33,492 nt of DNA from Herpetosiphonaceae bacterium (GTDB taxonomy: Bacteria; Chloroflexota; Chloroflexia; Chloroflexales; Herpetosiphonaceae), in contig JABXJS010000095.1 of the NCBI GenBank assembly GCA_013538855.1, positions 1 to 33,492 of the forward strand, read 5' to 3'. The notes under the pieces are model-generated. The model was not told where the DNA came from and searched no databases. It saw nothing but the letters and a program-made list of their open reading frames with translations. This document shows positions 8,489 through 20,608 of this stretch, piece by piece. Every line of letters begins with the position of its first letter. The first letter of the stretch is position 1. The translations under genes were made by a program, and so were the position numbers.

Positions 8489-8524
8489 GCGGCCACTCCT
8501 CTCTGGAGTGGCCGCTTTTGCTTT
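8489..8524 (+). terminator. Strong intrinsic terminator
   Basis: A perfect 11-bp GC-rich stem (8489-8499 with 8505-8515) with a 5-nt loop is followed by TTTTGCTTT. It lies 25 bp after the stop of the peptidoglycan-binding gene. Confidence 0.9.
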
Positions 8525-8751
8525 AGAAATGCTACGCCGTGGTCTGCGCCTGCATCTGCTGTTGCCATGTCTAGCTGTGCTCGCCCGCTGCCACTTGCTG
8601 CGTGGTTGCGCCCCCGCTCGCTGATGGCCTGCGCCGCTTTTTTTGCTTTAGAAATGCTACGCCGTGGTCTGCGCCCGCATCTGCTGTTGCCATGTCTAGC
8701 TGTGCTCGCCCGCTGCCTCTTGCTGCGTGGTTGCGCCCCCGCTCGCTGATG
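8516..8751. repeat. Tandem direct repeat, two copies, 125-bp period
   Basis: The segment 8516-8626 recurs at 8641-8751, with only about two substitutions in the alignable 111 bp and a few extra T residues at the junction. Each unit starts with a T-rich tract followed by GCTTTAGAAATGCTACG. The first unit starts in the tail of the terminator of the preceding gene, so terminator sequence seems to have been copied too. Short readings through it are low-complexity and not convincing as protein. It fills the gap between the terminator and the next promoter. Confidence 0.9.
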
Positions 8752-8766: not shown

Positions 8767-8822
8767 CTGCTAGCGATCTGCTAGGAATCTGCTAGCCGCT
8801 GTGGCGCTGTTTTCGCTATGCT
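8767..8822 (+). promoter_or_regulatory. Three CTGCTAG repeats at 11-bp period plus -10-like hexamer
   Basis: CTGCTAG occurs at 8767-8773, 8778-8784 and 8789-8795, each separated by 4 bp. After exactly 21 bp comes TATGCT (8817-8822), a possible -10 for the membrane-protein gene starting at 8863. Seven-bp direct repeats at 11-bp period are the usual form of OmpR/PhoB-family binding sites. The same architecture recurs at 17519-17574. Confidence 0.6.
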
Positions 8823-9696: not shown

Positions 9697-10242
9697 ATGC
9701 GTAAGTTTGAATGTGCGTGCTCGCTGCTGCTGCTTGCCTGTGCGGTGGCAGGACTCTACGGCATGCTTCACAATCAAATCTCGTACACTGTTGCGCCAGA
9801 GTACTTTACGCAGTTCAAGTTTGATCAATTTGGTATACCTGCAAGCCTGCGCAATCGCTTAGGCGCGAGCATCGTTGGCTGGCGTGCTGCATGGTGGATG
9901 GGGCTGCTGATTGGGATGGTGCTGGTGCCGTTTGGTCTGCTCATCCCTGGCTGGCAGCAGTATCTGCGCACCATGCTGCAAACATTTTTTGTCGTTGCGC
10001 TCACAACATTGACGGTTGGGCTAGGTGCGCTAGCCTATGCCTATGCGACCTTTACTCCGGCCAATATCGGCCCGTATTCGGCGCGCATCACGCAGCCGCT
10101 GGCCTTTGCCCGCGCTGGTCATATGCACAACTTTAGCTATATTGGCGGCTTGATCGGCATCGTTGTTGGGGTGGTGTTTGTGCTGGTGCAGCGCTGGCGC
10201 ATAGGCCGCCGTGCAGCACCGCCCATGCCGCTAATCCAGTAG
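9697..10242 (+). CDS. Conserved membrane protein of unknown function
   Basis: A 181-residue protein started at ATG 9697, which has a perfect AGGAGG 7 bp upstream; the longer in-frame reading from 9571 crosses a dispersed repeat and has no ribosome site. Hydrophobic helices lie at about 5-24, 68-88, 96-120 and 146-167. The segment HNQISYTVAPEYFTQFKFDQFGI (about 26-48) resembles a motif I recall from a widespread uncharacterised membrane family (HDQxxYTxSPEYFTxFKF). The function is not known. It ends 103 bp from the convergent uvrA, with a hairpin between them. Confidence 0.75.
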   Translation: MRKFECACSLLLLACAVAGLYGMLHNQISYTVAPEYFTQFKFDQFGIPASLRNRLGASIVGWRAAWWMGLLIGMVLVPFGLLIPGWQQYLRTMLQTFFVVALTTLTVGLGALAYAYATFTPANIGPYSARITQPLAFARAGHMHNFSYIGGLIGIVVGVVFVLVQRWRIGRRAAPPMPLIQ

Positions 10243-14144: not shown

Positions 14145-17132
<2,988 letters not shown>

Positions 17133-17518: not shown

Positions 17519-17574
17519 GTGCTAAAGCCCCGCTAGGAAACTGCTAAACATACACCCCTAGCACCTGCTATCAT
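17519..17574 (+). promoter_or_regulatory. Three TGCTAR-type repeats at 11-bp period plus -10-like hexamer
   Basis: GTGCTAA (17519-17525), CCGCTAG (17530-17536) and CTGCTAA (17541-17547) are spaced exactly 11 bp apart. TATCAT (17569-17574) follows after 21 bp. Motif, period and distance match the site at 8767-8822. This suggests a shared OmpR/PhoB-type regulator for the lipoprotein pair starting at 17702, with a leader of about 120 nt. Confidence 0.55.
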
Positions 17575-17701: not shown

Positions 17702-18250
17702 GTGAGCATACTACGAGTACACCATTGGCTGTGGTTGGCTGTGCTGTTTGGCCTGGTCGCCTGCACCAACTATCGCGCAGGCACACCGGTTAGTTTTACA
17801 GAGATTGTGCCAGACCATGGCGGTGCCGATCCCTCAGAGCCACGTTACACGAATGAGGAACCAGCCTTGTTTGTGCTGCATCCCACTGAGCGAGCACAGA
17901 TTGCAGCGTTCATCCCAAAATCAGTGGAGCGCGAGCAGTTTTTGCAGGCACAGCTCGATGACAGCGTGATCATTGCCGCCTTTCAAGGCATGAAGCGCAA
18001 CTCTATTGCCGGAATTGCGATTCGGGCGATCTATCAAGATGGCGCTGATTTGTATGTGCATACCTTTTTCCGTGTGCCGCAGCCCAACGAGTTGTCGGCC
18101 GCATATATGGGCTTGTCGGCCTACTCAATAGTGCGCGTTGATCTGGCCGACCTGAACCCAGTGCCGCCGCTGCTGACGGTGCACCTCATCGACGAGGTCA
18201 CGCAGGACGAGGTGCTCCAGCAGACCATTGAGTTGACTACGACGCCGTAG
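17702..18250 (+). CDS. Lipoprotein of unknown function, tandem copy 1
   Basis: A 182-residue lipoprotein. I chose the GTG at 17702 because GGAGG lies just upstream and because the sister gene begins with the same codons (SILRVHHWLWL). The N-terminus is a lipoprotein signal with lipobox LVAC (about residues 18-21), so the mature protein should be lipid-anchored on the membrane exterior. The rest is a soluble domain, with LDDSVIIAAFQGMK, IRAIYQDGADLYVHTFFRVP and a conserved end HLIDEVTQDEVLQQTIELTTTP. I do not recognise a family. It is followed 21 bp later by a close duplicate, and preceded by a candidate response-regulator site. Confidence 0.8.
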   Translation: MSILRVHHWLWLAVLFGLVACTNYRAGTPVSFTEIVPDHGGADPSEPRYTNEEPALFVLHPTERAQIAAFIPKSVEREQFLQAQLDDSVIIAAFQGMKRNSIAGIAIRAIYQDGADLYVHTFFRVPQPNELSAAYMGLSAYSIVRVDLADLNPVPPLLTVHLIDEVTQDEVLQQTIELTTTP

Positions 18251-18271: not shown

Positions 18272-18820
18272 ATGAGCATACTACGAGTACACCATTGGCT
18301 GTGGTTGGCTGTGCTGTTTGGCCTGGTCGCCTGCACCAACTATCGCGTAGGCACACCGATTAGTTTTACAGAAATTGTGCCAGATCGTTTAACTTCCGAT
18401 CCGCTCCTGCCACACTACACAGATGAAAATCCTGCCCTATTTGTGCTGCATCCTAACGAGCGGGTGCAGATTGCAGCATTCATTCCAACGCCAGCAGAGC
18501 GGGAGCAGTTTTTGCAGGCACAGCTCGATGACAGCGTGATCATTGCCGCCTTTCAAGGAATTAAAGGGAATTCAATTGCCGGAATTGAGATTCGGGCGAT
18601 CTATCAAGATGGCGCTGATTTGTATGTGCATGCCTTCTTTCGGGTTCCGCACCCAAATGAATTGGCGGCTCAATATATGGGGCTATCCGCCTACTCAATA
18701 GTGCGCGTTGATCTGGCCGACCTGAACCCTGTGCCGCCGCTGCTGACGGTGCACCTCATCGACGAGGTCACGCAGGACGAGGTGCTCCAGCAGACCATTG
18801 AGCTGACTACGACGCCGTAG
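18272..18820 (+). CDS. Lipoprotein of unknown function, tandem copy 2
   Basis: A 182-residue duplicate of the preceding gene with the same lipobox (LVAC). The first 100 bp and last 130 bp are almost identical in DNA to copy 1, while the middle differs in both codons and residues: DHGGADPSEPRYTNEEP versus DRLTSDPLLPHYTDENP, and MKRNSIAGIAI versus IKGNSIAGIEI. An island near LQAQLDDSVIIAAFQG is again almost identical. This mosaic points to gene conversion after an older duplication. It starts with ATG 21 bp after copy 1 and has a short AAGG ribosome site, so the pair is probably co-transcribed. The function is unknown. Confidence 0.8.
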   Translation: MSILRVHHWLWLAVLFGLVACTNYRVGTPISFTEIVPDRLTSDPLLPHYTDENPALFVLHPNERVQIAAFIPTPAEREQFLQAQLDDSVIIAAFQGIKGNSIAGIEIRAIYQDGADLYVHAFFRVPHPNELAAQYMGLSAYSIVRVDLADLNPVPPLLTVHLIDEVTQDEVLQQTIELTTTP

Positions 18821-18949: not shown

Positions 18950-20608
18950 CTACCCGCCGATCGCATCCTCTTCTTCTTCTTGCTCCTCCAGCGGCACGCG
19001 GATGATCACCTGCGTGCCCTCGCCCGCCGCCGAGCGAATCTCGCACGAGCCGCCAACCAGAGTGGCGCGCTCGCCCATATTCAGCAGCCCAAACGAGCCA
19101 CGATCATCGTAGGAGGCTTGAATGCGGTTGATGTCAAAGCCGACGCCGCTATCGCGCACCACCGCCACCAGCATCTGGCGCTGGGTATCTTGGTGCAGCT
19201 CGATCCAGACCATCGAGGCTTTGGCGTGCTTGCGGGCGTTGTTGACCGCCTCCTGGATGATCATAAACGTTGCGGCGGCCGTCTGCGGCTTGAGCTTGCC
19301 GGTGAAGTTGCCCGAGGCGAAGCGCACCTGCATGCCCGAGGGATCGCGGAACTTGCTGGCGTACTCGTGCAGCGTCGCCACCAGACCCTGCGTCTCCAGT
19401 CCCAGCGGGCGCAGCTCGAACAGCAGCGTGCGCAGGTCCTGATACGTCTTGCGCACCAGCGAGGCCAGGACATTCAGCTCGTCCTCGACGCGCTCGGGCA
19501 TGGATTGGAGCAGCTTCTTGATGAACTCGATGTTCATCGAGATGGCGGCCACCGACTGGGTCGGCCCGTCGTGCAGATCGCGATTGATCTGGTGGCGCAC
19601 CTCTTCCTCTTTGCGGATGAGGCGGTCGCGCTCTTCCTTTAATTTAAGATACAGGCTGGCGTTCTCGATGGCGATGGCGGCCTGGCCGGCGAGCGTGGAC
19701 AGCACGCGCATATCCTGGTCGGTGAACGAGCCGTTGCGCTTGTTGACCACCTGCAGCACGCCGACGGTCTTATCGCGGGTGCGCAGCGGCACAGTGATAA
19801 TGTTGCGGGTGGTGAACTCAAGGTCTTGATCGACGCGCCGATAGAAGCGCGGATCGTTCTGTGGGTTTTCGACGATCAGGCCCTCGCCGTGCTTGACGAC
19901 CCAGCCGGCGAAGCCTTGGTCGATGGGCATGCGGTACGAGCGCAGCTCCTGGCTGTGGTTGCTGGAGGGAGCCTCGAAGTACAGCTCCTGGCGCACCTCA
20001 TCGACGAGCAGCAGCGAGCCGCCCTCGGCATCGAGGATGTGCGAGATGCGCTCGACAACCGTGCGCAGGACGCTGCGCAGATCGATGTCGCTGCTGATCG
20101 CCTGCCCAACCTGATAGACCAAGTTCATCTCTTCCAGCTCGCGGCGGGTGGAGTGCAGCAGAGCCACGCGATCTGCCGAGCCGCCGACGACGCCGACCAG
20201 CAGCAGCGCCAGCTCGCCCTCGTTTTCCGGCGAGACCTGATCGGCGGGGACGATCAAGTGCAGCAGGCCAACCTGTTCCTCACCAGAGCGCAGCGTAAGC
20301 TCCACCAGGGCATCGTGCTCATCGATGCCGTACACGCCCAAGTCCTGCTCGCTGACGGCGTCGCGCTGAAAGACCGAGCGGGTCTGCTCGATCATCTCGC
20401 GGGCCTCGGCCGAGGGCTGCCCCTGCTCCAGCATGAGCGGACGCCGGAACGGGTCGATGTACAGCACAGCGCCAGCGCTGGCTGGCCAGAATTCGATCAG
20501 ATGCGCCAAGAACGACTGCAGCAGATCCTTGGGGTTCTGGTAGGCAGTATCGGTAAGCAGGCGGCTGAACGCCTGCCAGCGCTGGGCATCTAGGGTGATG
20601 GTAGGCAT
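18950..20608 (-). CDS. GAF-domain sensor histidine kinase (NarX/DegS type)
   Basis: A 552-residue cytoplasmic kinase without membrane helices. Residues about 25-150 look like a diverged GAF domain. Residues 170-320 are a clear GAF domain (AEGGSLLLVDE, GFAGWVVKHGEGLIVENPQND, VGVLQVVNKRNGSFTDQD). The HisKA_3 dimerisation domain follows (about 338-410), with phosphoacceptor H346 in NRDLHDGPTQS. The HATPase_c domain has N-box QEAVNNARKHA (452-462), G1 DSGVGF (486-491) and G2 GSFGLLNMGERA (504-515). An unusual acidic tail (EEQEEEED) ends the protein. Such kinases normally phosphorylate a LuxR/NarL-type regulator, but none is adjacent, so this is an orphan. The ribosome site is a perfect AAGGAGG. 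Confidence 0.92.
   Translation of the reverse strand: MPTITLDAQRWQAFSRLLTDTAYQNPKDLLQSFLAHLIEFWPASAGAVLYIDPFRRPLMLEQGQPSAEAREMIEQTRSVFQRDAVSEQDLGVYGIDEHDALVELTLRSGEEQVGLLHLIVPADQVSPENEGELALLLVGVVGGSADRVALLHSTRRELEEMNLVYQVGQAISSDIDLRSVLRTVVERISHILDAEGGSLLLVDEVRQELYFEAPSSNHSQELRSYRMPIDQGFAGWVVKHGEGLIVENPQNDPRFYRRVDQDLEFTTRNIITVPLRTRDKTVGVLQVVNKRNGSFTDQDMRVLSTLAGQAAIAIENASLYLKLKEERDRLIRKEEEVRHQINRDLHDGPTQSVAAISMNIEFIKKLLQSMPERVEDELNVLASLVRKTYQDLRTLLFELRPLGLETQGLVATLHEYASKFRDPSGMQVRFASGNFTGKLKPQTAAATFMIIQEAVNNARKHAKASMVWIELHQDTQRQMLVAVVRDSGVGFDINRIQASYDDRGSFGLLNMGERATLVGGSCEIRSAAGEGTQVIIRVPLEEQEEEEDAIGG

Follow-up and report, generated by a model that had tools for sequence, protein, structure and literature searches.

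The window, by which we mean the whole stretch of 33,492 nucleotides from a Herpetosiphonaceae bacterium analyzed here, contains two sites at which three heptamers follow one another at an 11-bp period, with a predicted -10 hexamer 21 bp after the third. The earlier note had described these sites as a triple CTGCTAG followed by TATGCT at 8767-8822 and as GTGCTAA, CCGCTAG and CTGCTAA followed by TATCAT at 17519-17574; both descriptions were exact to the base, and the geometry of the two sites is identical. When both strands of the window were searched for three GCTA units at an 11-bp period, these two sites were the only matches. Their features, and those of the genes that they precede, are:

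8767..8773 (+): heptamer unit 1, CTGCTAG, read from the sequence and by pattern match
8778..8784 (+): heptamer unit 2, CTGCTAG, followed by GAAT; read from the sequence, its GCTAGGA being identical at four sites
8789..8795 (+): heptamer unit 3, CTGCTAG, read from the sequence
8817..8822 (+): predicted -10 hexamer, TATGCT, 21 bp after unit 3; the same hexamer at the same distance occurs on contig C105
8863..9381 (+): predicted target gene, encoding a 172-aa membrane protein (presumed start codon)
9697..10242 (+): gene for a second membrane protein, downstream of the 8863 gene
17519..17525 (+): heptamer unit 1, GTGCTAA, from the sequence and the GCTA pattern
17530..17536 (+): heptamer unit 2, CCGCTAG, followed by GAAA; from the sequence and the GCTAGGA comparison
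17541..17547 (+): heptamer unit 3, CTGCTAA, read from the sequence
17569..17574 (+): predicted extended -10 (TGC TATCAT), 21 bp after unit 3
17702..18250 (+): first gene of the target lipoprotein pair, its GTG start at 17702 placed by aligning it to the second
18272..18820 (+): second gene of the target lipoprotein pair, 87% identical to the first

No consensus -35/-10 pair was found in the vicinity of the 8767 site. Since the ATG of the downstream open reading frame at 8818 sits within the proposed -10 hexamer, the membrane-protein gene must begin later, and its true start is probably 8863; its product had no match in either Pfam or NCBIfam. The gene at 9697..10242 possibly belongs to the same transcript. 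Immediately 5' of the 8767 box are two 111-nt direct repeats (8516-8626 and 8641-8751) that are 98% identical and have a period of 125 bp. At the second site, a weak -35/-10 match (9/12, spacer of 18 bp) was present at 17545. Elsewhere in this part of the window, a gene for a GAF-domain sensor histidine kinase (18950-20608, minus strand) is convergent on the lipoprotein pair, with no neighboring response regulator gene noticed, and a PrkA-type kinase ORF (14145-17132, plus strand) carries an apparent in-frame intein.

We searched the whole genome of the same organism (G000; 6,335,032 bases in 285 contigs) for three TGCTAR units at 11 bp and obtained three matches, compared to none for a reversed-pattern control. 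This strict triple lies at two places beyond the window, both 5' of genes: on contig C105, where it is followed after 21 bp by TATGCT, and on contig C278, where it is followed after 20 bp by TACACT. A looser form with three GCTA units added the 17519 site and two doubtful places, while a relaxed 29-mer with 3 mismatches yielded nothing new in this genome. A model built from the four window-type sites (R2) produced one further candidate, on contig C186, in which two units (CTGCTAG AGAA CTGCTAA) stand exactly 21 bp before TATACT, upstream of the gene for an ABC ATPase and that for the accompanying permease. Taken by itself, a genome-wide E of 0.18 is weak, and the candidate's support comes from the agreement in distance and -10. 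The scan that the earlier note had proposed, for the triple followed at about 21 bp by a -10, thus led to sites that precede genes, though these sites are few. GCTA triples on contigs C6 and C234 and in genome G007 were dropped because they had no -10 at the right distance or were oddly positioned; an R2 match on contig C37 had neither a -10 nor a good gene, and the triples in genome G084 were a simple GCTAAAAGAAA-type tandem repeat.

The target on contig C105 encodes a calcineurin-like phosphoesterase with a twin-arginine-like signal, and the C278 site precedes a lipoprotein pair whose first member is 28% identical to the window's lipoprotein. The 17519 and C278 sites may have a common ancestry with their genes, while the box-bearing genes at the remaining sites (8767, C105 and C186) are unrelated. 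All five sites precede genes for membrane proteins, lipoproteins, signal-peptide proteins or exporters. In BLAST comparisons of the 300-bp flanks, likeness between sites was confined to the box, indicating that the box is not a copied element. Among the neighboring ORFs of these five sites, no regulator gene adjoined any of them.

Outside this genome, the strict triple matched once in 40 relatives, upstream of an hsp20 gene, and the control pattern had no match in these relatives or in all 41 genomes. R2 gave no strong matches in 39 other genomes, such that strong window-type sites were found in the window's own genome only. A scan of 84,980 species, among which this genome may be absent, returned 27 stretches, namely two Chloroflexales hsp20 sites and 25 scattered matches. 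The latter number is close to the chance expectation, and ten of them came from Pantoea, probably with one gene in common. In one Pantoea stretch (L280:331-385), three GCTAAT units at 11 bp precede an AraC-type gene, probably as part of another regulon.

Since the sole strict match outside the window's genome lay at hsp20, and since GCTAR triples were found upstream of hsp20 and clpB order-wide, we read the clpB and hsp20 upstream regions across the Chloroflexales. In 50 clpB upstream regions we counted exact 4-mer pairs at all spacings between 6 and 30; the leading pairs were AACA (18 regions), TAAC (15) and CTAA (14), each at 11 bp, and CTAR pairs peaked at 11 and 22 bp. EM recovered (T/G)CTAACA heptamers at 11 bp, the third unit being weaker and separated from TAYRMT by a gap of 20 bp (73%) or 9 bp (13%). 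Promoters aligned on the -10 displayed four heptamers, the fourth degenerate at many, then 9 bp to the -10, with TG before it; these heat-shock promoters have an extended -10 and no -35.

A model trained on 30 clpB and hsp20 sites only (R1) had matches with an E of 1 or below in 80 of 82 genomes, and its matches spanned 34 genera of Chloroflexales. While its matches at clpB and hsp20 are circular evidence, its non-training targets provide an independent check, and these were dnaK, htpG, groES/groEL, dnaJ, a thioredoxin-fold protein, DoxX and a small membrane-protein family. The E-values derive from a short calibration and are rough, and weak matches (E > ~0.02), which often precede genes without a name, may be chance. 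In the window's own genome, R1 matched upstream of clpB, hsp20, htpG, a second hsp20 and dnaK, and these chaperone boxes are of the CTAAC type. Small membrane proteins of ~130 aa with no confident Pfam match recur behind heat-shock boxes (L178, L179, L183, L184, L187 and L014). Neither the exact CIRCE inverted repeat (TTAGCACTC-N9-GAGTGCTAA) nor TTAGCAC-N11-13-GTGCTAA was present in the stretches examined. Taken together, these sequence comparisons suggest that tandem (T/G)CTAACA is a heat-shock promoter element across the order. An open-access literature search on heat-shock regulation in Chloroflexus, Chloroflexales and Roseiflexus found nothing relevant, and while such absence is not proof, the heat-shock switch of the Chloroflexales, an order of green non-sulfur bacteria, appears to be undescribed in the literature searched.

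The window-type and heat-shock boxes have in common the 11-bp period, the CTAR core and, mostly, a TG before the -10, and we read them as sister specificities. In a common register, the distance to the -10 is 19 bp for the window type compared to 20 bp for the heat-shock type. With E allowed to rise to 5, the window sites were still absent from the R1 matches, so by this model they are not members of the heat-shock box, although they would work in a similar way. Their PWM scores ranged from +3 to -7 bits compared to a training median of 27, which places them in the top 0.03-0.3% of background and far below heat-shock sites. Since the same architecture is found at the heat-shock promoters of the order, envelope control would be a side branch of it; and since the window box is a diverged sister of the heat-shock box, the two are probably served by paralogous regulators.

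Alternatively, one regulator could serve both boxes, with the envelope genes being diverged members of the heat-shock regulon. The shared period, the shared CTAR core and a -10 gap that agrees within one base are consistent with this possibility, as are the CTGCTAG-type units in the hsp20 arrays of G036 and G056, both Chloroflexaceae genomes, and the G036 site, which is matched by both R1 and R2. However, unit 2 reads GCTAGGA at all four window-type sites, while every heat-shock training box has C or T at position 6 of that unit; the chaperone boxes of the same genome are of the CTAAC type; and the window sites score low under the heat-shock model. We therefore consider a single regulator unlikely and favor two paralogous ones.

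The best candidate for the heat-shock activator is an OmpR/PhoB-type response regulator encoded beside an hsp20-linked kinase, based on circumstantial evidence from synteny. The hsp20 gene and a gene for a GAF-PAS-HisKA histidine kinase are divergently arranged in three families, with the box in between. Relative to the copy in the window's own genome (contig C41), this kinase is 71% identical in G007, which we take to be Herpetosiphon, and 52-58% identical in the other families. A response regulator gene directly follows the kinase gene in family f3, presumably the Roseiflexaceae (the Roseiflexus copy lies at L247:1297-569), and follows it after about one gene in family f2. Within f3, genus g6 is poor in boxes. 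The encoded protein has Response_reg and Trans_reg_C domains and is 75-97% identical between f2 and f3. Although its best solved-structure match was KdpE (4kny, E 6.6e-61), it is not KdpE, scoring 223.6 bits against the NCBIfam KdpE equivalog cut-off of 325. In the window's own family, the gene for this response regulator does not adjoin the hsp20-linked kinase, and no orthologue was found in 20 further stretches (382 kb from the window's own genome, C. aurantiacus and C. aggregans), which for the own genome represent a small part of the whole. These same 382 kb contained one 43%-identical response regulator, on contig C186 of the own genome. No regulator of the boxes adjoins clpB in its C. 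aurantiacus neighborhood.

Next to hsp20 there is also a gene for a 121-aa winged-HTH protein, HTH_29 (L250:7268-7633, minus strand), whose first 86 residues are 68-83% identical across three families. Another tandem-binding protein could occupy the boxes, be it a SARP/BTAD activator, a BldC-type MerR protein or this HTH_29 protein. The geometry of SARP promoters, in which repeats at 11 bp end 8 bp before the -10, is a very good fit, and the winged-HTH gene does adjoin hsp20 in the three families. On the other hand, SARPs share the OmpR-type fold and are thus a sub-case of the OmpR-type reading; the Herpetosiphon hsp20 stretches that were read have the box but showed no HTH_29 gene; and the own-genome copy of this gene is the first in a stretch that also has two small genes and a gene for an MglA-like GTPase. 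A binder other than an OmpR-family response regulator thus strikes us as rather improbable. It is far less probable still that the repeats arose by chance or belong to a family of short repeats with no regulatory role, since even though such direct repeats need no protein and the sequence just upstream of the first site (8516-8751) is itself duplicated, the control pattern was absent from 41 genomes, the -10 geometry recurs at unrelated genes and the flanks are unrelated between sites.

In the activator-array explanation that we prefer, a transcription activator would sit head to tail on the 11-bp repeats, one helical turn apart, with the array immediately 5' of a promoter in which an extended -10 is present but a -35 is missing. 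The bound activator, most likely with an OmpR/PhoB-type (winged-helix) DNA-binding domain, would then recruit RNA polymerase, and in the window's lineage it would switch on a small set of envelope genes. We hold this explanation as a whole, including the OmpR/PhoB-type binder, the envelope set and the heat-shock sister box, with moderate confidence; activation, the family and identity of the binder, and the envelope role are what we infer from box geometry, targets and synteny. The earlier note had suggested an OmpR/PhoB-family regulon for the cell envelope. The architecture fits such a regulon and five sites stand at envelope-type genes, but no regulator gene adjoins them and the envelope set now looks like a side branch of a heat-shock layout.

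More tentatively, and with some doubt, we raise the possibility that the whole chaperone response of the Chloroflexales is run by a two-component system, made up of the GAF-PAS kinase and the highly conserved OmpR/PhoB-type response regulator, acting on tandem CTAACA boxes, rather than by a repressor or an alternative sigma factor, and that a paralogous regulator with the shifted code CTGCTAG governs the envelope branch in the window's lineage. One conserved promoter code before clpB, dnaK, groESL, htpG, dnaJ and hsp20 can be tested in Chloroflexus or Roseiflexus with a named candidate regulator, and the window boxes offer an example of how, inside a single genome, a second specificity may branch off from such a code.

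The heat-shock boxes share their target set (clpB, dnaK, groESL, htpG and hsp20) with HrcA/CIRCE, HspR/HAIR, CtsR and sigma-32. CtsR also uses direct heptamers. The boxes differ from all four systems in their activator-type position, 11-bp period and sequence. Compared to the KdpE system, the hsp20-linked kinase has a GAF-PAS-HisKA arrangement, with no KdpD domains reported. The Pho box bound by PhoB, like the sites of other OmpR-family proteins, consists of 7-mers with a 4-bp spacer in tandem (11 bp) that replace the -35. This tandem layout in the -35 position is also seen in the boxes described here, although these have another heptamer and three or more units, their last clear unit mostly lies 20-21 bp from the -10 rather than ~10 bp as in the Pho box, and no phosphate-uptake genes were seen among their targets. 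Tandem direct repeats at ~10-11 bp, a fixed distance to the -10 and a missing or replaced -35, which characterize OmpR/PhoB-type promoters, are all found here. In SARP-activated promoters (AfsR, afsS), an OmpR-like domain binds direct repeats spaced by 11 or 22 bp; the -35 is poor, and 8 bp separate the 3' repeat from the -10 (PMC10936776). SARPs control antibiotic pathways in Streptomyces, while no SARP gene is linked to the boxes here, and the 8 bp to the -10 compares with 9 or 20 bp at the heat-shock boxes. Since the heat-shock promoters fit the SARP/PhoB geometry with these 9 or 20 bp, activation by a tandemly bound OmpR/PhoB-type protein would, by analogy, be the likeliest mechanism, with the window promoters placing their boxes one turn upstream of the closest position.
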